Below the pieces are notes generated by a model that saw nothing but the letters and a program-made list of their open reading frames with translations, searched no databases and had not been told where the DNA came from. A program made the position numbers and the translations under genes. From Nostoc sp. TH1S01 (GTDB taxonomy: Bacteria; Cyanobacteriota; Cyanobacteriia; Cyanobacteriales; Nostocaceae): a DNA stretch of 61,023 nt. Location of the stretch: assembly GCA_018993265.1 (NCBI GenBank), contig JAGKSW010000097.1, positions 1-61,023 on the forward strand, given 5' to 3'. Below are positions 3,204 to 41,357 of the stretch, one piece after another. Numbering within the stretch: the first letter of the stretch is position 1; each line of letters starts with the position of its first letter.

Positions 3204-5660
3204 ATGCGCTCCGAAGAAAAAATTCCTTGGGAGGATATTAAGCAATTAGTTGATGCTGTCGTATTTCAATCTACTAAGAAGTATCTCACTGACATAGAAG
3301 TGAAAGTATTAAAAGGTAGTTGGGATGGTAAAAAATATGAGGATATTGCGAGAGAGCTAAATTTAACCAATACATATATTCAAAATGATGTTGGTGCTAA
3401 ATTATGGAAAAAACTTACAGATGCTATCGGAGAACCTGTGAGTAAAAGTAATTTTCGCCAAGCACTAAATCGCGCCAGAGAAAAGCAAAAATCACAACAG
3501 ATATTTCCATCTACTAATCTGCGAGAACTTCCTCATCATCCAGTTCCGCTCAATTCTCCTCTCTATATAGAACGCTACTCCCCAGAATCTCTGCATTACA
3601 CTATAGAATCTTTTTGTTATGATGCGATCGCCCAACCCGCAGCTCTCATCCGCATCAAAGCACCAAGACAAATGGGCAAAACTTCCCTACTGGACAGAAT
3701 TCTGGCTCAAGCACACAACTATGGTTATCGTACAGTACGTTTGAACCTCCAGGATGTAGATGAAGTAAACTTTAGTAACTTGGATAACTTTTTGCGTTGG
3801 TTTTGTGCATACATCAGCCTAGAGCTAAATGTGAGCGATCGCGTCCAAGATTTTTGGAAACAACCCATTGGCAGTAAAATTAGCTGTAAAACATACTTAC
3901 AAGACTATGTATTTCCGCAAATAAACACTCCCTTAGTCTTGGCTTTTGATGAAGTAGATCGTATTTTTAGTTATCCTGAATTGTCTCAGGGCTTTTTTGG
4001 ACTACTGCGAACTTGTCACGAAGAAGCCAACAACCGATATATCTGGAAACAACTACGACTGGTGGTGGTACATTCCACCGAAAATTATGGGCTATTGGAT
4101 ATCAATCATTCACCGTTTAATGTCGTAGAGTATAAACGTATTACATTTTGTCTTTTAGGAGTGGTAACACCGTCGGATTTGAAAGATAAAAAGGGAATTC
4201 CTTTCAATATTGGTAAAGCTATTGAATTAGCTGGATTTTCTTTTGAAGAAGCCTAGCAATCCTTAACTAAAGGACTAGTGCATAAAGTCGATGCACCCGA
4301 AATAGTTTTACAAGAAATCTTATCTTGGACTGGTGGGCAACCATTTCTTACACAGAAATTGTGTAAACTGATTATTGAAAAAGAAGCAACTATAAATCCA
4401 AATATTAACGAAATAGTTGAAAATTACATTATTAAAAATTGGGAATTTTATGATGATCCAGAACATTTGAGAACAATCAAAAATCGACTACTGATCGATA
4501 AAATCTTAGCTTATAACCGACTAAAAATTTATCAACAAATATTGCATAATCAACACATAGACGCTGATGATAGCGATGAACAAATAGCATTACGCTTATC
4601 AGGGTTAGTAGTTAAACAGCAAGGTAAATTAAAAGTTTGTAATAAAATTTACCAAAATGTTTTTAATCAAAGTTGGGTTGAAAAAAACTTGGCTACGCTA
4701 CGAGAACTGTTAGATATAGATATCAATGCTGAATTAAAAACTAATAAAATTTTAAATTATACTTTACTAGTACCCATAGCTATTATTCTTGCTATTATCA
4801 GTTTAATTTCTTTAGGTTTTTCATACATAGTTGTTGAAAGTCAGCCGTGGAATCAAGCATATAATAGTAGTAATATCGGGGCTATACTTGAGTGTATCAG
4901 AGTCTGCTTTTTATTAACATTAGAAGTATATGTAATCTGTTCTGAATTTAGCCAAGAAACAATCCAATTTATTTTAGACAAAAGATTCTATTTAAGACGT
5001 AGAGTTACATATTTTGTAGGGTTTATATTTTGTCTAATGTTGGTATTTCATCACTTTTGGTATGGGGCACATCAACTCTTAGGAAATAATCAAGTAACCT
5101 CTGACGAATACTTCCATCAGTATCTACTACCTTATATATGTTATTTTCCTTACTCTATCATTAACTTCATCATTATAGGTGTTCCGCTATCTGGCTTAAG
5201 TATACACGTAGTTATTGAAGATTGTAACAAGCTCAGTATAAAAATCCGAAAATATAAAAACTACCTGAATCAAATAACAAATGAAATATCTCTATTACCT
5301 TATATTGATAAAAATGAGATTATCCAAAAATTTAAACAAATATACTGGAGTTTTTATGAAAAAATTAACCGACCTATGAATTTGCTTTTAGGCATTGTAA
5401 TTCTGATTTATTTTGACGCAACTTTCAGTAAAAGCACATTATCTAATAGCGCCTACTTGTGGACGCAATTATTTTGTATATTTGGTTTTATAACTCCGGC
5501 AATTGTGTTGATTTTGTGGGGATTGTTGGCGTATCAAAAAAATATGGAAAAAACTATTGGTATTCTATTTAATTTAAATTGTGATTTTACTGAAATTGAA
5601 AGTCAATATAGTACATTTAATTTATTAAAAAAATTGTCATCTCAAATATTTTCTTACTGA
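3204..5660 (+). pseudogene. STAND-type ATPase with six-helix membrane domain, split by one TAG
   Basis: The frame is open from ATG 3204 to TGA 5660 (about 818 codons) except for TAG at 4254-4256 (codon 351). Coding continues in the same frame directly after it (QSLTKGLVHKVDAPEIV), so this is one gene with a nonsense change or a recoded stop. Residues 1-95 are an N-terminal HTH of the vMAP-N type (YEDIARELNLTNTYIQNDVG). Residues 115 onward form the AAA-like NTPase, with Walker A APRQMGKTS at 153-161 and Walker B LVLAFDEVD ending at 251. LSWTGGQPFLTQKLCKLI belongs to the helical region that normally follows the NTPase. About six predicted transmembrane helices fill residues 515-785. Relatives usually carry WD40, TPR or CHASE2 domains instead. 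Probable conflict or signalling NTPase acting at the membrane. Confidence 0.7.
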
Positions 5661-9651: not shown

Positions 9652-10140
9652 ATGGAGTTTTTTGTGGCTATCTTAAGAACCTTGCAACCAGGCGATGAAG
9701 CATTGCTCGAAAAGTTTTTGTTGCAACACGCCGATACTTCGATGTTTTTGCGATCAAATTGGCGTGAAGCAGGTTTACTCGACCAAGGTGCAAGGTTTCA
9801 GGGAACATACATAGCTGCGATCGCCAATGAAACTATAGTTGCAGTCGCTGCTAGACACTGGATTTTAGTAGCCGAAGATACTCCCATAGCTTATACAACT
9901 TTTAATGCTTGGCTACCTGATATTGTGCAGATTGGCGGAGTCTGGACACCGCCAGCATTACGCAGCAGAGGTTATGCCAAATGTGTAGTAGCTGGCTCAT
10001 TATTGGAGGCGCGATCGCACGGAGTTGAACGCGCTATCTTATTTACCAATCGAGAAAACCACGCAGCCCAAGCAGCATATCGAGGTATAGGTTTTCGCAC
10101 CACAGGCGAAGAATTTGGTCTAGTAATTTTTAGTGATTAA
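9652..10140 (+). CDS. GNAT-family N-acetyltransferase
   Basis: 162 residues. The central beta strand IVQIGGVWTPPALRSRGYAK carries the acetyl-CoA motif, with RSRGYA as the pyrophosphate loop. The C-terminal ILFTNRENHAAQAAYRGIGF is the usual GNAT motif B end, with the tyrosine that often acts as general acid. ATG 9652 is used; GTG 9664 would remove four residues. It lies 22 bases after the pentapeptide gene on the same strand. Substrate unknown. Confidence 0.8.
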   Translation: MEFFVAILRTLQPGDEALLEKFLLQHADTSMFLRSNWREAGLLDQGARFQGTYIAAIANETIVAVAARHWILVAEDTPIAYTTFNAWLPDIVQIGGVWTPPALRSRGYAKCVVAGSLLEARSHGVERAILFTNRENHAAQAAYRGIGFRTTGEEFGLVIFSD

Positions 10141-10218
10141 TACCAAGTTGCAGTCAAGGATAGTAACCTAGGGTGGGAGTAGAGACTAGGAATCCTATTT
10201 CTGAAAGCAACTTAGTAT
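10140..10218. repeat. Small inverted-repeat element
   Basis: 79 bp bounded by ATACCAAGTTGC on the left and its near complement GCAACTTAGTAT on the right (one mismatch). It fills the gap between the convergent GNAT and LuxR genes, and its first base is the last base of the GNAT stop codon. MITE-like. It could also act as a two-way terminator. Confidence 0.5.
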
Positions 10219-10243
10219 CAGAAGTCGAAAATTGCTGCCAAGT

Positions 10244-10861
10244 TTACAGCATAATTAAACCCAGCCTGACACCAGCCGTCACCGCCTCGGTACGGGAGGA
10301 GACAGCCAGCTTTTGAAAGATTGATGAAACATGGAATTTTACCGTATGTTCGGAAATTTGCAGACGTTTAGCGATCGCTTTATTACCCAACCCAGAACCT
10401 AACATTCCCAAAACTTCTATTTCTCTCGGTGTCAATGTTTGCACTGGATTAGCCACAACTTTTTCCTTAATGGAAAGTAATTCTAAATAATCTGGGTGCA
10501 GTACTATCAAACCCGATGCGATCGCTTCGATAGCTGTAGTAATTTCTGCTTCTGTGCTAGTACTTGGTAATATCCCCCGAATGCCAGAACGTAATCCTGT
10601 TTCCAAGTCGATACTGTCAATATCTTCAGTAATCAGCAAAATTTGCGGTTCTGATGTCAGTGGTAATTTTGCCCACGCCGATGGAAGATTACTGCTGAAA
10701 TCTAACAGCACTACATCTGGTTGTAATTGCTCAAATTCCTTGGTGAATGTATCCAAATCTGATGTACTTCCCACTACGGTCAGTTGGGGATGATTATTGA
10801 TCATAGATGACAAACCCAACCGCACCACCAAAGAAGCAGCAATTACCATCACTCGGATCAT
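10244..10861 (-). CDS. LuxR/NarL-type regulator with degenerate receiver domain
   Basis: 205 residues. The C-terminal LuxR HTH is complete (LTPREIEVLGMLGSGLGNKA, then LQISEHTVKFHVSSIFQKL). The N-terminal receiver keeps the phospho-acceptor position Asp54 (VVLLDFSS) and a switch Thr (LLIT). It has Ala8-Ala9 (VMVIAAS) in place of the acidic pair that binds magnesium. The beta-5 lysine is also missing, since GIRGILPST replaces the usual GxxGYLLKD. Phosphorylation is therefore unlikely and control by protein contact is more probable. Its ATG overlaps the stop of the upstream protease gene (ATGA), so the two are translationally coupled. It is the last gene of a three-gene operon. Confidence 0.85.
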   Translation of the reverse strand: MIRVMVIAASLVVRLGLSSMINNHPQLTVVGSTSDLDTFTKEFEQLQPDVVLLDFSSNLPSAWAKLPLTSEPQILLITEDIDSIDLETGLRSGIRGILPSTSTEAEITTAIEAIASGLIVLHPDYLELLSIKEKVVANPVQTLTPREIEVLGMLGSGLGNKAIAKRLQISEHTVKFHVSSIFQKLAVSSRTEAVTAGVRLGLIML

Positions 10862-11673
10862 GTAGCCTCCACAGTGGTTTTCCTGGTAATGTTAACTACA
10901 AATTGCTTTTTCCCCCGCAGAACTTGTAATGGGATAAACTCCTGGCTGTGATGCAGATATTTTGCCAAGTCATCAGGTTGAGTAAATAACCGTCCAGAAA
11001 CCCCAATTAATACATCACCAATTTGCAAACCAAACGTTTCCGCGACACTACCTGGAAGTATGGATAATATTAGTAAACCGAGAGTGCGCCTGTCTAAAAC
11101 CACAGGTTGCAAGGTTACTCCGAGTTGCCAACGATGATGACCACACAGAAAGCGGTTAACTGTGTTGCTGGGAATTGCCACCGCCAAACCGTTGACAATC
11201 ATTGTATTGATACCAACGACTCGCCCCAGACAATCAGCCAAACATCCGCCAGAATTACCAGGATAAAGTTGTAAATCTGCGATGACTGCTCGTTGATTAT
11301 TGCTGTGAACCATCCCCATTGTGAATGCACCATCATCACCTAAAGGATTACCCACAGCCAAAACTAATTCACCAACTCTGAGTGCATCGGAATTACCAAT
11401 GGTTGCAGTATTTAAGTTCGTTGCCGTAATTTTGAGTGCGGCTAAATCTTGCTGGGGGTCAAAGTGCGATCGCACAGCCGCAAATACCCGACCATCAAAT
11501 AATTCTACAGTTGCCTGCTGGCTGGTTGCCACATGAGCATTTGTGATAATCAATCCGTCTGTTTGCCAGATAACCCCAGAACCAACTCCCAACCCACCGC
11601 TTTTGACTTTGACTGTACTTTGACGCAATTTAGCGGCGACTGCTGACAGTTCATCATTGAATTGTGTAATCAT
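10858..11673 (-). CDS. HtrA-like serine protease with PDZ domain (S1C), cytoplasmic
   Basis: 271 residues. The chymotrypsin-fold triad is intact: His47 (IITNAHVA), Asp76 (DPQQDLAAL) and Ser141 (LYPGNSGGCL). A PDZ domain follows at about 185-265 (LGLLILSILPGSVAETFGLQ). There is no signal peptide or transmembrane anchor, unlike the HhoA/HhoB/HtrA proteins of cyanobacteria, so a cytoplasmic site is likely. It lies 26 bases after a catalytically dead paralogue and overlaps the LuxR regulator by four bases. The context suggests a protease, pseudoprotease and transcription factor circuit. Confidence 0.88.
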   Translation of the reverse strand: MITQFNDELSAVAAKLRQSTVKVKSGGLGVGSGVIWQTDGLIITNAHVATSQQATVELFDGRVFAAVRSHFDPQQDLAALKITATNLNTATIGNSDALRVGELVLAVGNPLGDDGAFTMGMVHSNNQRAVIADLQLYPGNSGGCLADCLGRVVGINTMIVNGLAVAIPSNTVNRFLCGHHRWQLGVTLQPVVLDRRTLGLLILSILPGSVAETFGLQIGDVLIGVSGRLFTQPDDLAKYLHHSQEFIPLQVLRGKKQFVVNITRKTTVEAT

Positions 11674-11699
11674 AGTTGCTAAAAATAAACGGAAATTAC

Positions 11700-12605
11700 T
11701 TACTCAACGGGGCGTTCGCCAACTAGAATATCTAACTCAATTAATGCCCCACCCCGGACAACCTGCACTTTGATGAGTTTACCAATGCGATCGCTATTAT
11801 TTAGTAGTGCCAAGACATCGCCTGTATCACTCACGGCTACATTATCCAATGTTACCAACACATCTCCCAGCAAGATACCTGCCTGGTCAGCCGGGCTAGA
11901 TGCTTCCACATTGACAACAATTACCCCTGTTGTTGTCGGTAAATTTAAACTATTTTTCAAGTTGTGAGGTAAGCGTACAGGCTGCATACCTACACCCAAA
12001 TAACCGCGAGCAATGTGTCCTTTAGTGAGTAATTGATTGACCACACGCTCAATTGTACTAGCCGGAATTGTCAAAGCCGTACCCCGCCGTCCCGCTGTAT
12101 TCATTCCCAGCACGTAACCAGCCGCGTCTACCAGCGCCCCACCAGCAAAACCAGGGTAAAGAGTGATATCTGGGCGGATAAATTGGTCAATATTACCACC
12201 ACTCATACTCCGCCAAGCCCCACTAACTACACTTACCGCCCCCATCGCCGCCCGTATATCACCTTCGCTACTTCTGGCTAATCCCAAAACTAAATGACCA
12301 ACTTTGAGTTTTGTGACATCACCAATTTTTGCCACTGGAATTGAAACATTTTGCAACTGAAAAATAGCTAGATCAGTACTCGGATCATGACCGAGAAACG
12401 ACACTGGTACAGTATGTCCATCTGAAAAAGTTACTGTGATTTCTTCATAACTTCCCAGAGATTCATCCGAAGTTACAATGATGCTGTTGCGCCAGTGAAT
12501 GCCACTTGAGCAAATACGTTTACCAGCATTAACAGCAACTACAGCACTTCCAGCCTGTTCTACAATGTCAGCTAAACTGTTGGATAGAGCCAGCAATGAA
12601 GACAT
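11700..12605 (-). CDS. HtrA-like pseudoprotease with PDZ domain
   Basis: 301 residues from ATG 12605, preceded by GGCGGAG. It aligns along its whole length with the next gene. The catalytic His is replaced (IIVTSDESL, Glu48) and the Ser by Ala154 (LYPGFAGGALV). Only the Asp survives (DPSTDLAIF, Asp78). A PDZ domain occupies 205-295 (VIVVNVEASSPADQAGILLG). No signal peptide. The fold is well preserved and the reading frame intact, so it is likely a functional non-catalytic partner, such as a substrate adaptor or regulator of the active protease encoded 26 bases downstream. Confidence 0.85.
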   Translation of the reverse strand: MSSLLALSNSLADIVEQAGSAVVAVNAGKRICSSGIHWRNSIIVTSDESLGSYEEITVTFSDGHTVPVSFLGHDPSTDLAIFQLQNVSIPVAKIGDVTKLKVGHLVLGLARSSEGDIRAAMGAVSVVSGAWRSMSGGNIDQFIRPDITLYPGFAGGALVDAAGYVLGMNTAGRRGTALTIPASTIERVVNQLLTKGHIARGYLGVGMQPVRLPHNLKNSLNLPTTTGVIVVNVEASSPADQAGILLGDVLVTLDNVAVSDTGDVLALLNNSDRIGKLIKVQVVRGGALIELDILVGERPVE

Positions 12606-13298
12606 AAAATTCTCCGCCAATATTTTTTGATGTTTCTATCTTGTCGCTTTGCATCTAGAGATAGCATCAGAAAAATGGGGAGAATTCCACCTAGAAAAAT
12701 GGCTAGTACCGCTACGCGGAAGTCAAAAGTCAAAAGGAGCCAGTGCATTGTGCTGCTTTGTCAACTCTCTCACTAGCCTTCATAAGTTAAAAATTTTTCT
12801 GATGTAAATTAATATAAATTTCTCCGAAATTCAGTCTTAACAATTGGTAACTGCTGAATATAAGTCATTGATTTGACAGATATATGTTAGCAACTAATTT
12901 CAATCACAAACTTATATTGAAATTTTATTTGCAATATGATAATTGTCGGTTTAACAAACTGTAAAAAACCCTGATTTATGCAAAAAAGCTTAATAAAATA
13001 TTTAGGAAATATCCTGTAAAAGAACTGTAGAAAATAGCATAATCGTTCTTAAAAGCAAGCATCATTTTAGCTCTGCTATTTATGTAGAAAATTTTAATTG
13101 ATTGGTGCAAACACTAAGGCTAAAATGATATGTTTTAAGCTTTTTTGTTCAGGATTATGGGTGCTGAAAAGACATATCCAAAAAACTAGGAGAAAATTCC
13201 ATAAAAATTATAGTTAGAGGATATGCTGCCCGCATTAATTAGCCGATTTATGTTCGCCAAATTGGCGATCGCTAAGTTTTTTAAGGAGAATATCTAAT
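12606..13298. other. Divergent promoter region, about 690 bp
   Basis: Lies between the divergent protease operon and the M4 protease gene. No ORF with protein character. The last part carries a HIP1 site (13266-13273) and a strong ribosome-binding site, TTTTTTAAGGAGAATATC, just before ATG 13299. The middle is AT-rich (around 12830-13110) and probably holds both promoters. I saw no confident operator. Confidence 0.4.
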
Positions 13299-14378
13299 AT
13301 GGCTCGGAAGAAAAAATCATCTGGTTCTAAAAAATTTCAGGATTTACTACATACTAGATGCCCTATCTGTTGCATTGTTCCACCTCACATGCTGGAACAT
13401 GTGGCTGTGAATGGTAATCCTCAACAACGTGCATGGGCATTTCATACATTAAACGTTTCAGCTCAGTTTCAAGGGCGACGGAATGTTGTGGGGAATATTT
13501 TCTTCTCTCCTTCTCCTGGTGAGAAGCGACGCACTATCTACGACGCGAAAAATGGACAACAACTTCCAGGTACCTTGGTGCGTGGTGAAGGGGATCCGCC
13601 TAGCACTGATGAAGCAGTGAATGAAGCTTACGATGCTGCTGGTGCTACTTATGACTTATATTATGAAGTATTTGAACGTAACTCGATTGATGATAAGGGT
13701 TTGCGTTTAGATTCTACCGTCCATTATGGTGTCAAATATGACAACGCTTTTTGGAACGGTGACCAAATGGTCTACGGCGATGGCGATGGCGAACTTTTCC
13801 AACGCTTCACAAAATGTGTTGATATTATTGGGCATGAGTTAACACATGGAGTAACTCAATACGAAGCTGGGCTGCAATATTATGGTGAACCAGGCGCATT
13901 AAATGAGTCATTTTCTGATGTTTTTGGTTCTTTAGTAAAACAAAAATTAAAAAATCAAACAGCCGACCAAGCCGACTGGATTATTGGTGAAGGTCTTTTA
14001 GCGCCTGGTGTTAAAGGTATTGGTATTCGCTCCATGAAAGCCCCAGGAACAGCTTATGATGATTCTGTGTTAGGCAAAGATCCACAACCTGCACACATGC
14101 GCGACAAATATACTGGTTGGGAAGATAATGCGGGAGTGCATATCAATTCCGGTATCCCTAACTATGCCTTTTATTTAGCCGCAATGGAAATTGGTGGTTA
14201 TGCTTGGGAAAAAGCAGGAAAAATCTGGTATATTGCTTTGCGCGATCGCTTACGTAACCAAGCACAATTTAAAACCGCAGCTAACGTCACTATCCAAGTA
14301 GCAGGAGAACTTTACGGTACAGATAGTTCAGAACAAAAAGCTGTACAGAATGCTTGGCAAAAAGTAGGAGTAATTTAG
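13299..14378 (+). CDS. Protealysin-like M4 metalloprotease
   Basis: 359 residues. The zinc motif HELTH is at 179-183, the third ligand Glu203 is in GALNESFSDVFG, and the transition-state His281 is in AGVHINSGIPNYAFYLAA. The N terminus has no signal peptide. It carries a short PPxxL-type precursor segment (CIVPPHMLEHVAVNGNPQ) as in protealysin precursors, rather than the long thermolysin propeptide. A Cys-rich start (RCPICCIVPP) is a variation. The gene 275 bases downstream encodes the emfourin-type inhibitor that usually accompanies these enzymes. Likely a neutral endopeptidase, stored inactive and matured by self-cleavage. It may act inside the cell or leave by a non-Sec route. Confidence 0.92.
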   Translation: MARKKKSSGSKKFQDLLHTRCPICCIVPPHMLEHVAVNGNPQQRAWAFHTLNVSAQFQGRRNVVGNIFFSPSPGEKRRTIYDAKNGQQLPGTLVRGEGDPPSTDEAVNEAYDAAGATYDLYYEVFERNSIDDKGLRLDSTVHYGVKYDNAFWNGDQMVYGDGDGELFQRFTKCVDIIGHELTHGVTQYEAGLQYYGEPGALNESFSDVFGSLVKQKLKNQTADQADWIIGEGLLAPGVKGIGIRSMKAPGTAYDDSVLGKDPQPAHMRDKYTGWEDNAGVHINSGIPNYAFYLAAMEIGGYAWEKAGKIWYIALRDRLRNQAQFKTAANVTIQVAGELYGTDSSEQKAVQNAWQKVGVI

Positions 14379-14451
14379 TAAGAAGAATTCAGGAGTCAGA
14401 AGCCAGAATACAGAACAGCGTGTGTAGATAGTAGGACGAAAAATTTAGGGT

Positions 14452-14532
14452 TCGGGGTAGGGTGAAGGGGTGGGTGTAAGCATTCAAAACCCTTACACCC
14501 ATTCTAAACAGACAACCCTTGTGTATAAGTCC
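14452..14532. repeat. Dispersed repeat, copy 1
   Basis: GGGTTCGGGGTAGGGTGAAG, an imperfect inverted repeat (GGGTGTAAG...CTTACACCC), then ACAACCCTTGTGTATAAGTC. A diverged copy at about 32614-32723 has the same order: GGGTGAAGGGGT, an inverted repeat around AAAACCCT, and a CTTTGTGCGTAAGCCCT end. Noncoding. Confidence 0.5.
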
Positions 14533-14590
14533 TGTTCTTTTCATTGTTGCTAAACTGGGGGAAGATATTTAAGTACTCACACAGAGTTAA

Positions 14591-14623
14591 TTCCTGTTCC
14601 CTGTTCCCTGTTTCCTGTTCCCT
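14591..14623 (+). repeat. Heptad short tandem repeat (TTCCCTG)n
   Basis: Four to five copies of TTCC(C)TG in tandem, a typical heterocystous-cyanobacterial STRR. Similar arrays are at 47675-47698 and 47780-47794. Lies between the M4 protease and its inhibitor gene. Confidence 0.75.
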
Positions 14624-14653
14624 CAGTTTTTGTATACAACGGAGAGCAAAACA

Positions 14654-14953
14654 ATGCGGATCACGTTTGAACGCACAGGTGGCTTTGCTGGGATAACTAA
14701 GAAAACAACCCTTGACACCAACACTCTTCCATCAAAGGAAGCTAAAGAACTACCATTATTAGTCCAAGCGGCTGATTTATTTCATTTACCTGCACAAATT
14801 CCCTCACCTAATCCTCAAAGCGATCGCTTTCAATATAGGTTAACTGTAGAAGACAACGATAAACAGCACACAGTAATTGTTAGTGAAGCAGCCTTACCAG
14901 GGACTTTAAGACCTCTGATTGAATGGCTAAATAATGCGGCCAAGCAAAAATAA
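14654..14953 (+). CDS. Emfourin-type inhibitor of M4 protease
   Basis: 99 residues from ATG 14654 (MRITFERTGGFAGITKK), with GGAG about eleven bases upstream. The same frame is open from TTG 14630. Small beta-rich protein with a conserved C-terminal LTVEDNDKQHTVIVSEAALP and LRPLIEWLNN, matching the protealysin-associated inhibitor emfourin as I know it. No signal peptide, like its partner. Position directly after the protealysin-like gene on the same strand supports the call. Likely binds the mature protease and keeps it inactive in the cell. Confidence 0.8.
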   Translation: MRITFERTGGFAGITKKTTLDTNTLPSKEAKELPLLVQAADLFHLPAQIPSPNPQSDRFQYRLTVEDNDKQHTVIVSEAALPGTLRPLIEWLNNAAKQK

Positions 14954-16725: not shown

Positions 16726-18837
16726 ATGCAGTTAGCAGTGGTTAATGATAGCAAACAAGAGATTGTGCAAATTAAAGAAAATGAGCAGCGCAAACAAATT
16801 CAATCCCTAGTGCAATTAGCAAGGAGCAAAACATTCCAAACAGGCAATCTCAAAGCTACATTACAAGAAATTACAGAAGTAGCAGCAAACACACTTGCTG
16901 TTGAGCGCGTTGGTGTATGGTTATACACCGCTGATCACACCGCAATTGAATGTAGCAATTTGTATGATTTGCGGAAGAAAATATACACATCAGGGCAGAC
17001 TTTATTCAAAGCAAGTTATCCTATTTATTTCCAAAGTTTGGAAATGGAGCGTAGTCTGGCTGTAAATGATGCCATTAACGACACGAAAACCCAAGAATTA
17101 GCAGCATCTTATTTAAAAGTATTTGGCATTACATCATTACTAGACGCGCCAATTTGGTTAGGAGGGCGTGTAGTAGGAGTAGTATGTAATGAACATGTTG
17201 GCGAAATGCGCCAGTGGACTGTAGAGGAAGAAAATTTTGCTAGTTCAATTGCTGATTTTGTTGCCTTAGCCATAGAAGCCAGCGATCGCCACACTGTACA
17301 AGAAGCTCTACGAAAAAGTGAAGCACAATTTCGCGCAATTTTTGAGCGTTCATCAATTGGTATTGGACTTGCAGATATCAAAGCTCAGATAGTAGATATT
17401 AATCCGGCGCTATGCCAAATGTTAGGCTACAGTCGGGAAGAATTGTATGGTAAATACTTTAGCGATTATATTTCGCCCCAGAAAGGAGATTTAGAGCTAT
17501 ATAAACAACTAATATCAGGAATGCGCGATCGCATTGAAATCGAAAAACATTTTCGGCATAAAAATGGCCAGTTAGTTTGGACAAACCTTTCGATTTCGAT
17601 GATTCCTGGGAGTAATGGTACGCCAGAATTCTTTTTAGCAATTATTGAAGATATTACTGAGCGCAAACAAACCGAGTTAAAACTCCGTGCATCTCAAGCA
17701 GCAGCGGAAGCAGGTAATCGTGCCAAAAATGAATTTTTAGCTACTATGAGCCATGAACTACGGACTCCTTTAAATGCAATTATGGGTTTATCACAGTTGT
17801 TGCAACAAGGAATGGTAGGTTCTTTAAATGAAAAACAACAAGAATATGTGAGTTGTATATATAGTAGCGGAGAGCATTTACTAGCAATTATTAATGATAT
17901 TCTTGACTTGTCGAAAGCAGAAGCAGGTACAGAAGAATTACTTTTATCAACTGCATCGGTAGTCGATTTATGTAATTATGCTCTTTCGACGGTGCGCGAT
18001 CAAGCTCAAGAAAAAGGGTTAAAACTGATCAGCGAAATTGATCCACAGGCTGAAACTTGTAAAGTGGATATTCGCCGCATGAAACAAATGTTAATTAACC
18101 TGCTGACTAATGCTATTAAATTTACTCCAGCAGGTCAGGTAAGCCTAGAAATCAAAAAAGTTCCGGAAGGAATTACGTTTACAGTTGGAGATACTGGGAT
18201 TGGTATAGATACTAATCAATTTCAGTTTCTCTTTGAACCATTTAAACAGTTAGACAGCCGCTTGAATCGTCAGTATGAAGGTACTGGTTTAGGGTTAGCC
18301 TTAACTCGTAAACTAGCAAGGTTACATGGTGGAGATGTAACAGTCGAATCAAAACTAGGTGAAGGTAGCCGTTTCACATTATTTCTGCCCAATCATGTAG
18401 ATTTAACCACAGATACAAATTTGAGCGATGAAAATGCAAATAAATTATTGACATCGCCACATCAATTAAATCAAAAACGCATTTTATTGATTGAAGCAGA
18501 AGAAAATATAGGGGTATTTTTGCAAGATTATCTCCAAATAATGGGCTACGAAGTTGAGTGGAATAATAATGTAGATAATTTTGGGGGAAAAATCAAAAAA
18601 TTTCAACCAAATCTAATCTTGTTAGATACAAATTTTTTCGCAATTAAAGAGACAGGTTTACTGCAAACTTTAAAGCAAGAAGCTGAAGGGCAAAATCTGG
18701 CTGTGGTCTTGATGGGTGTTCAGGAAGATGAGTTACGAGAATTGAGTGCAAGTCAAGCAGATAATTATGATTATATTGTGAAGCCAATTAGGATAATGCA
18801 ACTTGAGTCAATTGTGATGCGATATCTAAGCACTTAG
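16726..18837 (+). CDS. Hybrid histidine kinase GAF-PAS-HisKA-HATPase-REC
   Basis: 703 residues. GAF at about 30-185, PAS at 193-312 (RAIFERSSIGIGLADI), HisKA with phospho-acceptor His343 (ATMSHELRTPLNAIMG), HATPase with TGLGLALTRKLARLHGG, and a C-terminal receiver at 580-700. The receiver has IEAEE where DD is usual but keeps the Asp (LILLDTNF) and Lys (YIVKPI). No membrane helix, so it is a soluble sensor. The GAF lacks an obvious bilin cysteine motif. Stands alone. No cognate regulator adjacent. Confidence 0.88.
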   Translation: MQLAVVNDSKQEIVQIKENEQRKQIQSLVQLARSKTFQTGNLKATLQEITEVAANTLAVERVGVWLYTADHTAIECSNLYDLRKKIYTSGQTLFKASYPIYFQSLEMERSLAVNDAINDTKTQELAASYLKVFGITSLLDAPIWLGGRVVGVVCNEHVGEMRQWTVEEENFASSIADFVALAIEASDRHTVQEALRKSEAQFRAIFERSSIGIGLADIKAQIVDINPALCQMLGYSREELYGKYFSDYISPQKGDLELYKQLISGMRDRIEIEKHFRHKNGQLVWTNLSISMIPGSNGTPEFFLAIIEDITERKQTELKLRASQAAAEAGNRAKNEFLATMSHELRTPLNAIMGLSQLLQQGMVGSLNEKQQEYVSCIYSSGEHLLAIINDILDLSKAEAGTEELLLSTASVVDLCNYALSTVRDQAQEKGLKLISEIDPQAETCKVDIRRMKQMLINLLTNAIKFTPAGQVSLEIKKVPEGITFTVGDTGIGIDTNQFQFLFEPFKQLDSRLNRQYEGTGLGLALTRKLARLHGGDVTVESKLGEGSRFTLFLPNHVDLTTDTNLSDENANKLLTSPHQLNQKRILLIEAEENIGVFLQDYLQIMGYEVEWNNNVDNFGGKIKKFQPNLILLDTNFFAIKETGLLQTLKQEAEGQNLAVVLMGVQEDELRELSASQADNYDYIVKPIRIMQLESIVMRYLST

Positions 18838-28927: not shown

Positions 28928-29662
28928 TCAAGCTACCATAGTAACTTTTCCGGTTGCTATCTCATAACGACCGCCAGCAATTTTTAGTTTCTTTTCTTTG
29001 ATCAGGCTTCTTAAAATTGTTGAACTTTCTTCTAACCTTTTTACCTGATATTGAACATTCGCGATTACAGAATTATCTTCTAAATTACCTGGTTTACTTC
29101 TCACCATTTCTACGGCTGGTTTTATTTCTTCCACAAAAGCACCAATTCTACCGGGAAGTGGGTCACCTTTAACAGCAGCTGAGACTGCACCACATTTTGT
29201 ATGTCCTAAAACTACTATTAATGGCGCACCTAATACAGCCGTGGCGAATTCTAAGCTACCAATACCTTCTGGGCTAACAATATTACCAGCTACCCGTACA
29301 ATAAATAAGTCTCCAAATCCCTGATCAAAAACAATTTCGGCTGGAACTCTAGAATCTCCACAGCCTAGTATTGCTGCAAACGGATATTGACCAGCAGCAA
29401 TTTCTTGTAAACGCAATTTTGATTGATTTGGATTCATGCGTTTATCTTCTACAAATCTTTTGTTACCATCCATTAATGCTTTTAAAGCTTCTTGGGGATC
29501 TACTATTTGAGGTTTTGGTTCAGGCTTAGATGGTTGTTGGGCAATAGCTTGTTCTTCTTGCCAAACTATACTACTAGCAGCACTTGCACCGACCGCAACA
29601 CTGCCGATACCTGCTAATTTCAAAAAATTACGCCGCCCGACAAATCCATTAATTCTGCTCAT
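28928..29662 (-). CDS. Tat-exported beta-carbonic anhydrase, copy 1
   Basis: 244 residues. Twin-arginine signal at the start (FVGRRNFLKLAGIGSVAVGA). Beta-class active site: Cys and Asp-Arg dyad in ILGCGDSRVPAEIVFDQG and the HxxC pair in VLGHTKCGAV. All zinc ligands are present. Converts CO2 and bicarbonate outside the cytoplasm, where it may limit CO2 leakage or feed bicarbonate transporters. Ribosome-binding site GTGAGGTAGATA before ATG 29662. Paralogue of the gene 427 bases upstream on the same strand. Confidence 0.9.
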   Translation of the reverse strand: MSRINGFVGRRNFLKLAGIGSVAVGASAASSIVWQEEQAIAQQPSKPEPKPQIVDPQEALKALMDGNKRFVEDKRMNPNQSKLRLQEIAAGQYPFAAILGCGDSRVPAEIVFDQGFGDLFIVRVAGNIVSPEGIGSLEFATAVLGAPLIVVLGHTKCGAVSAAVKGDPLPGRIGAFVEEIKPAVEMVRSKPGNLEDNSVIANVQYQVKRLEESSTILRSLIKEKKLKIAGGRYEIATGKVTMVA

Positions 29663-30088
29663 TATCTACCTCACTCCCAACAATAAACCTAGACTAAGTT
29701 ACAGTGTTTCAAATCAAGTTAAACCCTCTTACCTGAAGACGCGATCGCTCTAAAGCACATTTTGTCTTTTAAGCAAAGATAAATTTGTTGATTTAACTTA
29801 TAAATTTTCAATGTTTGTCATTTACTGAAATATATCAGAGTGGTGTATTGTTACTAAACATAATTTTCATATAAGAATAATATGGTTAAGTATGGATTTA
29901 ATCTATGGTTAATTTTTCTATGTACACAAGACTTAAGTCACAAATTAGTGTATGGCAGAAATACACAGCATTGATCGCACTTAGAATTATTGGTGAACGA
30001 CAAGATCCCTAACTTCTTCAAGAAGTCGGGGATCTGAAACACTACGATGTTCACAAATTAAATAGGATTGCTATATCTACCTGATAAT
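29663..30088. other. Spacer between the carbonic anhydrase genes
   Basis: Contains a HIP1 site near 29741, a 33-bp palindromic repeat (30003-30035), and a lone family B MITE end (TTCACAAATTAAATAGGATT GCTATAT, 30050-30076). No gene seen. Confidence 0.5.
30003..30035. repeat. 33-bp palindromic repeat, copy 2
   Basis: AGATCCCTAACTTCTT and its near complement GAAGTCGGGGATCT around a short CAA loop, with two mismatched positions. Same length and design as 2703-2735. Lies 53 bases after the end of the upstream carbonic anhydrase gene (minus strand), a position fitting a terminator. Confidence 0.7.
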
Positions 30089-30802
30089 TTAAGTAATTAG
30101 ATTCACCTTGCCAGTATCGATATCGTAGCAAGCACCAACTATTTGGAGTTTGCTGGCTTGTAGCAATTGATTTAATATTGGCGAACTTTGTTGTATTTTT
30201 TTTGACTGGTACTGCACATTGGCAATGACTGCATCAGTGGAATTTAAGTTGGTTAATGCAGGTTGAATACTTTCAGCTACGTTGCTAATCATACCAGGCA
30301 TAGGTTCTTTTTTCATGGCTGCTGTTACAGCACCACATTTTGTATGACCCAATACGACTATTAGTTGTGTTCCTAATACAGATGTAGTATATTCCAGGCT
30401 ACCTATAGCTATATCACTGGCGACATTACCAGCAACGCGCACAACAAATAAATCTCCTAATCCTTGGTCGAAAATAATTTCTGTCGGTACTCTAGAATCA
30501 GCACAACCTAAAATAGCCGCAAAAGGGTACTGTGCTTTAGCTACTAATTGTAAGCGTGCCAATGATTGATGAGGATATTGGCGTTTGTATTGGATAAATC
30601 TTTGATTACCATCCAGCAAAAGTTTTAAAGCCTGAGTAGGGTTAACTGGATTTGGATTAGCTGGATTAATATCTGCGATCGCAGTTTTCTGAATACTACC
30701 TGTTAGACTACCACCAATCGCTGTAGCGGCGATCGCTAAACTACCTGTCCCTGCAAATTTCAAAAAATTACGGCGACCAATAAATCCATTAATTCTTGTC
30801 AT
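30089..30802 (-). CDS. Tat-exported beta-carbonic anhydrase, copy 2
   Basis: 237 residues from ATG 30802 (MTRINGFIGRRNFLKFAGTG), chosen because the paralogue starts at the equivalent codon with the same upstream AGGTAGATTA. The frame is open to 30856 but the extra 18 residues would spoil the Tat signal. Active-site residues are complete: AILGCADSRVPTEIIFDQG and VLGHTKCGAVTAA. Diverged from copy 1 mainly in the linker after the signal and the C terminus. Predicted extracytoplasmic CO2 hydration. Confidence 0.9.
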   Translation of the reverse strand: MTRINGFIGRRNFLKFAGTGSLAIAATAIGGSLTGSIQKTAIADINPANPNPVNPTQALKLLLDGNQRFIQYKRQYPHQSLARLQLVAKAQYPFAAILGCADSRVPTEIIFDQGLGDLFVVRVAGNVASDIAIGSLEYTTSVLGTQLIVVLGHTKCGAVTAAMKKEPMPGMISNVAESIQPALTNLNSTDAVIANVQYQSKKIQQSSPILNQLLQASKLQIVGACYDIDTGKVNLIT

Positions 30803-31277
30803 TAATCTACCTGACAACACTTTCGCTGTTAACAGGAAGATATCAACTTTATTCAAGTAGAAGAGTACCTTCTGACACGGTTTTAATCAAATTCTCCTGC
30901 TTGCTGATAAACATTGCTTAATAACAAGCTTTTGTAAACTACGGTTTTGTTTAAAATTTAGCCAAAATTCTTAGTTACTCGTAAATACTAATAAATACTA
31001 CAGATGATGTAGAAATAACCGAACTTAATAATCATTGAGGATTTTATAGAATATTGGGTTTTACCTATAAAATCATGTTTTATTTTTGAAATAGATTAAG
31101 GGCGAACCGTCGTTTTTTTAGGTGTGTAAAACCCTACTAGTAAAGTTGTGTTCTCTGTATTTTCATTTGCTTGAACATTAAGGCAAGATTACAAGTGTGA
31201 GCGACAAAAATAATCAACATCGCTAAAGCTTAAGAAAATCGCAATTCGATTAGTTATCAATCCAGAGGTAAAATAAT
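30803..31277. other. Divergent promoter region of carbonic anhydrase 2 and hsp20
   Basis: 475 bases with no gene. AT-rich around 30950-31100. CCAGAGGTAAAATAATATG gives the hsp20 ribosome-binding site. I found neither a CIRCE-type inverted repeat nor another confident heat-shock element. Confidence 0.35.
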
Positions 31278-37431: not shown

Positions 37432-37791
37432 TTATTTTCCTGGTGGAGTGTGTTCGCTTTCTAGCTCATCTGGTGCGGCGATGTCTGAAAAACCTACTAG
37501 GCTGACGGGTGGACGGTTGGGAAATTCTACAACAAGGCGTAATTCTCCTCCCATTGCTGCAATATACTTCCGCAAAGTTGACAGCATTAAATCTGTACGC
37601 TGTTCCAGTCGAGAAACATTCCCTTGGTCAATTTGGAGAAGTTCTGACATTTGTTCCTGAGTCATTTTGAGTGCAAGTCTTAGTTGCTGTCGAGTCATTT
37701 CCTCTGCAATGAGCAAGTTAGATTCTTCTTCAATCTTTTTACGTCGTTCTGGTGATAACTCGTCTAGTTTTTCTTTCAAAGTTTTCCCCAT
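37432..37791 (-). CDS. XRE-family antitoxin (HigA-like)
   Basis: 119 residues. Helix-turn-helix at about 40-75 (LRLALKMTQEQMSELLQIDQ GNVSRLEQRTD), then IAAMGGELRLVVEFP, a common HigA-type tail. Located nine bases after a HigB-type toxin gene on the same strand. It should neutralise the toxin and repress the operon. Confidence 0.85.
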   Translation of the reverse strand: MGKTLKEKLDELSPERRKKIEEESNLLIAEEMTRQQLRLALKMTQEQMSELLQIDQGNVSRLEQRTDLMLSTLRKYIAAMGGELRLVVEFPNRPPVSLVGFSDIAAPDELESEHTPPGK

Positions 37792-37800
37792 AGATAATCC

Positions 37801-38169
37801 TCACTTTTCCTCATGTTCACTTTTTAGTTGAGCTAAGTGTGCATCGAATCTAGCATCAGCAGTTTTAATAAGTTTTTTGTAAAAACGACTTTCACTACCA
37901 CCTGATTTATCACCTGCAACTAGTAATATTGCATAGCATCTGGGGTCAAATGCAAACGCAACACGCCAAACACCATCTGCGGCTTGAAATCTGAGTTCCT
38001 TCATATTGCTATGTCGTGAACCATTAAGCGTGTCAACATGAGGCCGTCCCAATTCAAAACCAAAAGTTTCCAATAGACCAGCACGAGCAAGTAACTTATT
38101 CTGCACTTCTTCTGGTAGAGCATTAAATTCTGGTTCAAAGTGTGGATGAAACTCAACAACCCAATTCAT
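37801..38169 (-). CDS. HigB/Gp49-like RelE-superfamily toxin
   Basis: 122 residues. WVVEFHPHFEPEFNALPEEV at the start, ELRFQAADGVWRVAFAFDPR in the middle and GDKSGGSESRFYKKLIKTAD near the end are typical of the phage Gp49-like HigB family, a ribosome-dependent mRNA interferase. Toxin-first order with the XRE antitoxin is the HigBA arrangement. Apparently intact; the only complete toxin-antitoxin pair in the element. Confidence 0.85.
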   Translation of the reverse strand: MNWVVEFHPHFEPEFNALPEEVQNKLLARAGLLETFGFELGRPHVDTLNGSRHSNMKELRFQAADGVWRVAFAFDPRCYAILLVAGDKSGGSESRFYKKLIKTADARFDAHLAQLKSEHEEK

Positions 38170-40515: not shown

Positions 40516-40674
40516 AGCGATGAAGCCGTGGTATTTGAGCAATTAATGGCGCAAGGAGCGGTCAAACGCATAAAAGTTGCTCGTCCATACCTCCGTCCTG
40601 GTCAAGTAGTTGGCGATAAAGGTTATAGCAGCTTCAATATTCGTCGCTATTTGCAGCAACGTGGGATTCGCTAA
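40516..40674 (+). mobile_element. IS5-type transposase C-terminal-region fragment
   Basis: The plus strand reads FEQLMAQGAVKRIKVARPYL RPGQVVGDKGYSSFNIRRYL QQRGIR and TAA. VVGDKGYSS with the second catalytic Asp is typical of IS5-family DDE transposases. Only about 50 codons remain, so the insertion sequence is dead. Confidence 0.6.
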
Positions 40675-40725
40675 ACCATTCTATGTAGGTCGAACGAACG
40701 CAGACACGGTAAGTTTGATAAATTT

Positions 40726-40861
40726 CTTTGCCTTCACGTCCAGATTCAGTATCAATTAATACTATTTCTGCCCCTGCCGCCTTAAGACGAGCTATTTGCT
40801 GATCTAAGGCCGCCGAATTTTCTGCCTGTTCTCTAGACGAAACACGGGCATAGGCAACCAC
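40726..40861 (-). pseudogene. Truncated serine recombinase (XisF-like)
   Basis: From GTG 40861 the frame reads VAYARVSSREQAENSAALDQ QIARLKAAGAEIVLIDTESG. The YARVSSREQ start with the catalytic serine is that of large serine recombinases, close to XisF of the fdxN excision element as I recall it. Homology ends after SGREGK near 40726, so only about 45 of several hundred residues remain. The start lies ten bases from the moaE stop, as expected for a recombinase beside its attachment site. Confidence 0.65.
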
Positions 40862-40867
40862 TTCGGT

Positions 40868-40952
40868 AATTTTAACAATTTTGTCCTGACTGTTCACAAG
40901 CACCAATACTGACCCAAGTGCTAGAACCATTCTGCCAGTGTTCTTTTTTCCA
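40868..40952 (-). repeat. moaE 3' end repeat (candidate attR)
   Basis: Direct repeat of 36843-36927, two differences in 85 positions. Includes the last 26 codons and stop of the intact moaE gene. The putative element lies on the side away from the moaE body. Confidence 0.8.
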
Positions 40953-41357
40953 TATCGGTGCATTATGTTTGAGGGTATCAATACCATAGCGACAGGCTTC
41001 AAAAGCTTCACTCCGATGGGGACAACCAACTGCAACTAAAACGCTGATTTCTCCAACTTGTAAACGTCCAATGCGGTGGTGAATTACAACTCGGTTGACA
41101 TCAGGCCACAATGACCGAATATCAGCAGCAATTTGATAAAACACCCGCATTGCCATTGGTTCGTAGGCTTGATATTCTAAGGCAACTACAGCTTCTCCAT
41201 CAGTATTATTCCGTACCATACCACTCATCACCACCACAGCACCGTTAGCTGGAGCATCAGCCTTGGCGTAGACTTCTTCAAGGGATAATGGGGCGAAGGT
41301 AATTGCAAAGCTATCTTCGCTTCTCGGTTTAAGTGGTGCGGTAAATGTATTGGTCAT
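40872..41357 (-). CDS. moaE: Molybdopterin synthase catalytic subunit
   Basis: 161 residues. ADAPANGAVVVMSGMVRNNT, LEYQAYEPMAMRVFYQIAAD and VVIHHRIGRLQVGEISVLVA are the MoaE core. PIWKKEHWQNGSSTW holds the catalytic lysines. Dithiolene formation on precursor Z with MoaD as sulfur donor. MoaD is not nearby; the MoeBR gene 13 kb away may serve it. The 3' end is duplicated 4 kb downstream, apparently by integration of a mobile element. Confidence 0.93.
   Translation of the reverse strand: MTNTFTAPLKPRSEDSFAITFAPLSLEEVYAKADAPANGAVVVMSGMVRNNTDGEAVVALEYQAYEPMAMRVFYQIAADIRSLWPDVNRVVIHHRIGRLQVGEISVLVAVGCPHRSEAFEACRYGIDTLKHNAPIWKKEHWQNGSSTWVSIGACEQSGQNC

Follow-up and report, generated by a model that had tools for sequence, protein, structure and literature searches.

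HtrA proteins like DegS and AlgW recognise peptides via their PDZ domain; these two are active, anchored, periplasmic proteases that act through an anti-sigma factor. Here we describe a locus of the cyanobacterium Nostoc sp. TH1S01 in which an HtrA protein is linked to a transcriptional regulator. The stretch analysed (61,023 nucleotides, contig JAGKSW010000097.1 of assembly GCA_018993265.1, positions 1 to 61,023; hereafter the window) carries a cassette of three genes (Table 1) that encode an HtrA with a defective catalytic triad (dead HtrA), an HtrA paralogue with an intact triad (live HtrA) and a NarL/LuxR-type regulator with a pseudo-receiver (LuxR). As opposed to DegS and AlgW, the dead HtrA has no hydrophobic N-terminus and, judging from its residues, would not be expected to have protease activity. 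We propose, with a probability of roughly 0.5, that the HtrA and LuxR form a cytosolic, phosphate-independent sensor-regulator pair that is served by an accessory protease.

Several described systems resemble parts of this cassette. A 2016 review, which also mentions the DegS-RseA link, reports that Degs of Nostoc punctiforme and Anabaena variabilis are mutated, inactive and perhaps neo-functionalised, and that they cluster with Gloeobacter and PDZ-less Degs (PMC4877387). These inactive Degs probably belong to the same family as the dead HtrA, but the main text of the review names no LuxR or response regulator and its Deg section no operator or other phyla. Inactive HtrA copies of the MamO type arose several times, and MamO itself is an HtrA pseudoprotease by genetics and structure, with a TauE-like transporter domain and metal binding (PMC4794232). 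MamO and MamE recall the cassette in that an HtrA-derived pseudoprotease with a non-catalytic role stands beside an active HtrA; however, the TauE-like domain and metal binding are MamO's own, no regulator partner is described in the parts of that paper drawn on here, and the dead HtrA differs from MamO in lacking a hydrophobic N-terminus, in its link to LuxR and in having a dispensable live partner. On the side of the regulator, BldM, WhiI and NblR are atypical proteins that work phosphorylation-free or without receiver residues (PMC12632262), and in this they resemble LuxR, although none is paired with an HtrA in the sections of that review used here. Finally, Arabidopsis DEG9 is an HtrA that acts on a response regulator, ARR4, but it does so as an active protease that lowers ARR4 (PMC6963811). 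No report of the HtrA-LuxR pairing, of its DNA element or of its occurrence in other phyla was found in the open-access literature searched, and the cassette is a strongly conserved, apparently undescribed combination of known parts.

For comparison we assembled the best 80 of 102 relatives of the locus, found by peptide patterns of the window protein (81 loci with the window; numbered with L below), and because of this choice the residue counts lean to Nostocales. Both HtrAs have the HtrA/Deg (S1C) fold, with a trypsin-like domain and a PDZ domain (Pfam, NCBIfam). By the His-Asp-Ser triad, the live HtrA (His47/Asp76/Ser141) qualifies as an active protease and the dead HtrA, which has Glu48 at the His and Ala154 at the Ser position and retains Asp78, does not, as a preliminary description of this DNA had recognised for both proteins. 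Neither reaches the curated score of 450 for NF041521 (HhoA/HhoB/HtrA of cyanobacteria), the dead HtrA scoring 132.4 and the live HtrA 132.9 bits, and both are also under the cut-off of the curated DegS model. The dead HtrA has named close relatives in Nostoc piscinale, at 89-90% identity. The dead gene is open in all 81 loci, with 290-332 aa, although in L066 the first 33 residues are without match. Glu-type proteins account for 69 of the 81 family members. Glu48 is invariant among them and throughout the Nostocales set, whereas the Ser position varies; the Asp and many other features, such as the YLG motif of the PDZ domain, are conserved as well. The complete triad is present in 65 of 66 live relatives, window included. 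By analogy with the repurposed MamO, Glu48 and Asp78 may form a new site, for example for metal. Public records of several dead HtrA relatives (P0003, P0014, P0015, P0017, P0030 and others) bear the label 'LuxR family transcriptional regulator', which seems to belong to the neighbouring gene.

The N-termini were compared by a simple hydropathy measure, which is not a signal-peptide predictor: the best 19-residue stretch within the first 60 residues reached at most 1.26 in the 81 dead and 1.18 in the 66 live HtrAs, and the five further HtrAs encoded in the genome of the window, taken over the first 80 residues, gave 1.92, 1.74, 1.70, 1.45 and 2.09. A limit of 1.6 was exceeded by none of the dead, none of the live and four of the five other HtrAs. 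By this measure neither protein has a DegS-type anchor or a signal sequence, and the cytosolic location that the preliminary description had assigned to both HtrAs is probable.

LuxR has the receiver and GerE helix-turn-helix (HTH) domains of NarL/FixJ proteins, the receiver match being weak (Pfam, NCBIfam). At the acidic pair of the receiver stand Ala8 and Ala9 and at the Lys position Pro99, losses already listed in the preliminary description; the phospho-acceptor Asp54, which that description left unmentioned, is present, as is Thr78. The receiver thus departs from the canonical set (DD, D, T/S, K) and, with both acidic residues and Lys absent, is a pseudo-receiver in the sense of PMC12632262 (at least one of the five residues absent). 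The family is marked by Ala in place of the first acidic residue and Pro in place of the Lys. Asp occupies the acceptor position in 66 of 79 family members from the loci, window included, and among the matches listed from metagenomic relatives Glu is found there in 106 of 120. Glu at the acceptor position is a classical phosphomimic. One LuxR relative, P0281 (Chloroflexota-type, named Thermomicrobiales), was confirmed in no viral contig and seen in no plasmid.

The three genes are coupled on the minus strand in the order dead HtrA, live HtrA, LuxR, with a gap of 26 bp and then an overlap of 4 bp, in line with the 26 bp and the overlap given in the preliminary description. Presence in the 80 loci was judged by frame length (live HtrA at least 150 aa, LuxR at least 190 aa), which scores the broken live gene of L033 and the LuxR of L066, matched in two pieces, as present: in 60 loci the dead gene is followed by both live HtrA and LuxR, in 12 by LuxR without live HtrA, in five by live HtrA without full LuxR and in three by neither. 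Among the eight loci without an adjacent full LuxR, L019 and L076 lie near a contig edge, L062 has a shortened frame and L025 a remnant, LuxR being otherwise lost from that genome; in the remaining four (L027, L031, L033, L046) a LuxR orthologue is present elsewhere in the genome, on another contig. Separation of the genes in related genomes, which the preliminary description had named as a sign against its interpretation, therefore occurs in these four genomes, but LuxR is still there. In 26 other loci (e.g. L011, L017, L020, L024), the space between dead and live genes exceeds 230 bp; when these are thinned to 17, up to 10 have common words such as GAACTCGGAA or AACGTTGAGC, which look like a mobile or hairpin repeat inserted into the operon.

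In 145 Nostocaceae genomes drawn separately, some of which may also be among the 80 loci, the dead HtrA was present in 65, LuxR in 65, both in 64 and each alone in one (Fisher p 4e-39, relatedness not corrected), and all 64 pairs lie on one contig within ~2.5 kb (coordinates as read). The live HtrA was found in 57 of the 145. At E 1e-40 no live HtrA was detected in nine of the 65 genomes with a dead HtrA, and eight of these nine have LuxR. More diverged copies would be missed at the limits of the three family surveys (E 1e-45, 1e-27 and 1e-40), and first-look candidates were only partly scored in some genomes. Eight genomes drawn from the window's own genus had, at these limits, all three genes (three genomes) or none (five). 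A looser whole-genome search of 14 genomes found no live orthologue in 11, two of them (L085, L088) being distant lineages, in which greater divergence of any orthologue is to be expected. The constant part of the cassette is therefore dead HtrA plus LuxR. Of the three-gene order to which the preliminary description had drawn attention, these two members are conserved, whereas the live HtrA is optional, and 60 of the 80 loci above are complete.

The live HtrA has no PDZ domain in several lineages, and PDZ-less forms of 182-202 aa with LuxR adjoining occur in L045, L069, L072, L075, L080 and L086. Standing beside a PDZ-bearing dead copy, these recall plant Deg5, which has no PDZ (PMC3473262), and Deg8, with which it forms hetero-oligomers (PMC4877387), and together with the activation of MamE by MamO without catalysis (PMC4794232) they would fit a dead HtrA that is a regulatory subunit of the live one, with LuxR setting only the expression of the pair. 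We regard such a role as unlikely, as the dead HtrA persists in the 11 of 14 genomes in which no live orthologue was found, the plasmid versions described below show a single HtrA only, and the failure to find a live HtrA in nine of the 65 genomes argues that a partnership of the MamO type is not generally required. One reading of the preliminary description has the live protease cleave LuxR under the control of its dead partner. This would agree with the overlap of exactly 4 bp between live and LuxR genes in 53 of the 60 loci with both, and plant DEG9 likewise is a protease that controls the level of the response regulator ARR4 (PMC6963811), but the model is improbable in view of the genomes that keep dead HtrA and LuxR where the live protease is not found (8 of 9). 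Because the live protease is dispensable and its PDZ was lost in several lineages, cleavage of LuxR is unlikely as a general mechanism, and a protease pair as the sensor is not supported on the same two points; what is supported of the phosphorylation-independent circuit drawn in that description is a single cassette, a pseudo-receiver and the probable cytosolic location of both HtrAs.

Selection was measured on 46 of the 81 loci, pairs with dS outside 0.05-1.5 in any gene being removed (878 of 1035 used; pairs and genomes are phylogenetically non-independent). The median dN/dS was 0.127 for the dead HtrA, 0.131 for LuxR (0.17 for its receiver) and 0.168 for the live HtrA; in 753 of 878 pairs the dead gene had the lower value of the two HtrA genes. 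Purifying selection acts more strongly on the dead than on the live gene, and of the relaxed selection that the preliminary description would have held against its proposal there is no sign. Loss of the catalytic residues could by itself suggest a decaying duplicate without function; this candidate was ruled out by the low dN/dS, and the open frames (81/81), the invariance of Glu48 in the Nostocales set while Ser varies and the parallel loss in distant lineages (see below) leave it a negligible probability.

Upstream of the dead gene lies a bipartite DNA element. In 59 thinned upstream regions, k-mer counts revealed 10-mers common to up to 47 regions, versus at most 5 in resampled sequence, and the dyad CCTAG-N8-CTAGG occurs in 25 of the 59. 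The first module, CTAGCCATTTTTCTAGG, is present in 78 of 81 upstream regions (0, 1, 2 and 3 mismatches in 49, 17, 8 and 4, respectively), where it begins 94-166 bases ahead of the start codon; 14 of 400 random 400-base pieces from the same loci reached no more than 3 mismatches, and some of these may overlap the element. A strict pattern of both modules matched 16 of the 145 genomes, once each and, judged by coordinates, always at the cassette, with no match of the reversed control, and is too strict in that it misses the other 49 of the 65 cassette genomes. Within the genome of the window, the 17-mer matched 35 times at up to 3 mismatches and its reversed control 18 times. The site at the cassette is the sole exact match, and the second module is absent from the bases printed around the three 2-mismatch matches. 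When 26 single-module loci were inspected (two places twice), 20 lay inside reading frames of at least 90 aa, and we claim no regulon from such matches. Outside reading frames, the 17-mer is exact in L171 (at 2792) and L172 (at 2823) and has one mismatch in L173 (at 2792) and L174 (at 2782); these copies, near a monooxygenase-like and an SDR-like gene (by eye) and with the second module absent from the bases printed, are possible further targets. An exact 17-mer also occurs within a long reading frame in two genomes (L169, L170), and since one of them, G174, is listed without dead HtrA, a single module alone is not diagnostic. An Rfam search of positions 10000-13400 returned one chance-level match (snR41, E 0.76, under the gathering score), so the element is not read as a known RNA, and a simple promoter scan showed no clear excess (11 vs 8.9, sd 3.3).

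Relatives of the dead HtrA with an adjoining LuxR also occur outside the cyanobacteria, in genomes of the phylum of G408 (the source of L085, titled Acidobacteria). LuxR follows the HtrA in L085, L096 and L103 and precedes it in L097 and L098; a second HtrA is present in L097 and L103. The proteins of L085 and L096-L098 share 39-53% identity with the window protein, and the L103 protein is 47% identical to that of L085. The pair is rare there, in 4 of 247 genomes of the phylum and 2 of 12 of the order (G408 counted in both). Plasmid-borne HtrA genes followed by LuxR occur in Paraburkholderia sprentiae, where the two are separated by 18 bp, and in Bradyrhizobium sp. Ash2021, where they overlap by 4 bp, and in neither case is another HtrA annotated within 5 kb; the Bradyrhizobium HtrA has the triad E-D-Q, and most of the receiver of its regulator is gone. 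The HtrA and LuxR genes on a P. phymatum plasmid (L107) look frame-broken, and the P. sprentiae copies are open.

The upstream element appears to accompany these genes. Scored with matrices from other loci (L085 left out) against 1000 Markov-resampled sequences, and uncorrected for their number (16), the two p-values per locus were 0.001 and 0.002 for L103, 0.008 and 0.001 for L106, 0.004 and 0.003 for L107, 0.051 and 0.006 for L085, 0.011 and 0.027 for L100, and 0.022 and 0.20 for L108; L106 and L107 are of the same genus and hence counted as one. Relatives of the element are thus likely, from these scores, in Acidobacteriota and Paraburkholderia. Because the site follows the HtrA-LuxR pair across phyla, and LuxR is the pair's only DNA-binding protein, we read it as the LuxR binding site; it looks like a LuxR operator.

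The same relatives bear on the origin of the pseudoprotease. His-Asp-Ser is retained beside such a regulator in basal cyanobacterial, acidobacterial and Paraburkholderia relatives, and a tree built without the catalytic columns requires at least 8 changes at His and at least 10 at Ser. It is a quick tree, with 43 of 111 inner branches open and counts of changes that depend on sequence choice (odd triads were favoured in picking 64 of the 120 sequences among the matches listed, to which 21 thinned loci of L009-L073 and three further P sequences were added; most P sequences come from metagenomes). A single origin of Glu was rejected, as the Glu rows do not form one clade (p=0.00015), and since L078 could group with Nostocales only at least four origins are counted: Nostocales, L088, Acidobacteriota and Bradyrhizobium, the last outside the tree. 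These data show that the dead HtrA descends from an active HtrA and that catalysis was lost repeatedly. We tentatively extend the interpretation to a two-gene unit, present in several phyla with its own operator, in which an often inactive cytosolic HtrA receptor switches a pseudo-receiver by contact and the protease has repeatedly turned pseudoenzyme.

How the proposed sensor-regulator pair would work can be outlined as follows. The HtrA fold would now be a receptor that binds, through its PDZ domain and its inactive cleft, a peptide or an unfolded segment, in parallel to DegS, and the signal would pass to LuxR by direct contact with the pseudo-receiver in place of phosphate; binding of LuxR by the dead HtrA is possible. 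LuxR may then bind the bipartite element, which is conserved, and control the cassette, and its other targets are perhaps few. The live HtrA, where kept, would be accessory, in a mixed oligomer with the dead copy or in removal of the signal peptide. In the simplest view, peptide sensing by HtrA has been kept and its output switched from cutting to contact. Alternatively, the operon might serve protein quality, the dead HtrA being a holdase chaperone and LuxR an always-on autoregulator that acts by its amount, not by contact. A constitutively active pseudo-receiver acting via expression level is an option discussed in PMC12632262, and the prevalent Glu at the acceptor position among the metagenomic matches listed and the Bradyrhizobium LuxR without most of its receiver would suit it. 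This alternative, however, leaves unexplained why HtrA is linked with one regulator across phyla, in changed order, and why the receiver is mostly kept at a dN/dS of 0.17, and we think it quite unlikely.

A number of observations weigh against the proposed sensor-regulator pair. A LuxR that merely regulates the operon would also give co-inheritance, and since Asp54 is kept in most cyanobacterial members some phospho-chemistry is possible. Occurrence is patchy, with 7 of the 292 genomes of a phylum draw, and Fischerella L025 retains the dead HtrA with a mere 39-aa remnant of LuxR. As for the operator, matrix scoring showed no element in L101 and L102; the element is kept (0-1 mismatch) in five loci that have no full LuxR alongside (L025, L027, L031, L033, L046); neither an HtrA nor the element at up to 3 mismatches was seen in 3.5-4 kb of sequence around each of the four relocated LuxR genes (L191-L194); and the single module (at most one mismatch) matches 63 of 99 genomes, some of them cassette-less, the control matching 5.

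Table 1. Coordinates of the cassette and its upstream element in the window.
Feature	Position	Strand	Remarks
Dead HtrA (pseudoprotease + PDZ), E48-D78-A154	11700..12605	-	ATG at 12605, 301 aa
Live HtrA (H47-D76-S141, single PDZ)	10858..11673	-	271 aa
NarL/LuxR-type regulator, pseudo-receiver (A8, A9, D54, T78, P99) + GerE HTH	10244..10861	-	205 aa
Putative LuxR operator, bipartite	12665..12706	-	60-101 bp upstream of dead-HtrA start
Module 1, CTAGCCATTTTTCTAGG	12690-12706	-	17-mer
Module 2, CTCCCCATTTTTCTGATG	starting 24 bp beyond module 1 (23-24 bp over the loci)	-	copy-like, spacing by own count

No kinase gene adjoins the cassette in the window; a frame at 16726-18837, hybrid-kinase-like by eye and without family search, lies 4 kb away with other genes between. 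Beside the cassette, and divergent from it, an M4 (thermolysin/protealysin-like) protease gene is followed by an Emfourin (PF20242) gene (13299-14953), a neighbourhood shared among the 80 loci only by L009 (stretches of up to ~13 kb). Elsewhere in the window, positions 3204-5660 encode an AAA_35 domain protein that is seemingly divided between two frames, likely by a frame break, the match stopping at profile position 192 of 331 when the first frame only was searched. Two adjoining carbonic anhydrase (Pro_CA) genes with N-termini that are Tat-like by eye lie at 28928-30856, and the HTH_3 and Gp49-like (DUF891) gene pair at 37432-38169 is one that we take to resemble a toxin-antitoxin of the HigB/HigA type. 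At 40634-41357 a MoaE gene is overlapped in a different frame by a resolvase-like N-terminal fragment (a weak match, under its cut-off), perhaps an insertion scar.

Pseudo-receivers are common, and a 2025 review calls their switching a mystery (PMC12632262). The cassette makes this question testable with three genes, for its regulator comes with a co-inherited partner that is strongly predicted, with a predicted operator and with natural variants that lack one part or another. At a single gene position, it also presents a natural progression from active to inactive protease, in which His was replaced by Glu in parallel in Cyanobacteriota, Acidobacteriota and Pseudomonadota. Taken together, our results suggest an undescribed mode of sensing inside bacterial cells, for which the HtrA and LuxR genes travel together behind a DNA site of unusual conservation in many Nostoc-type cyanobacteria and scattered soil bacteria.

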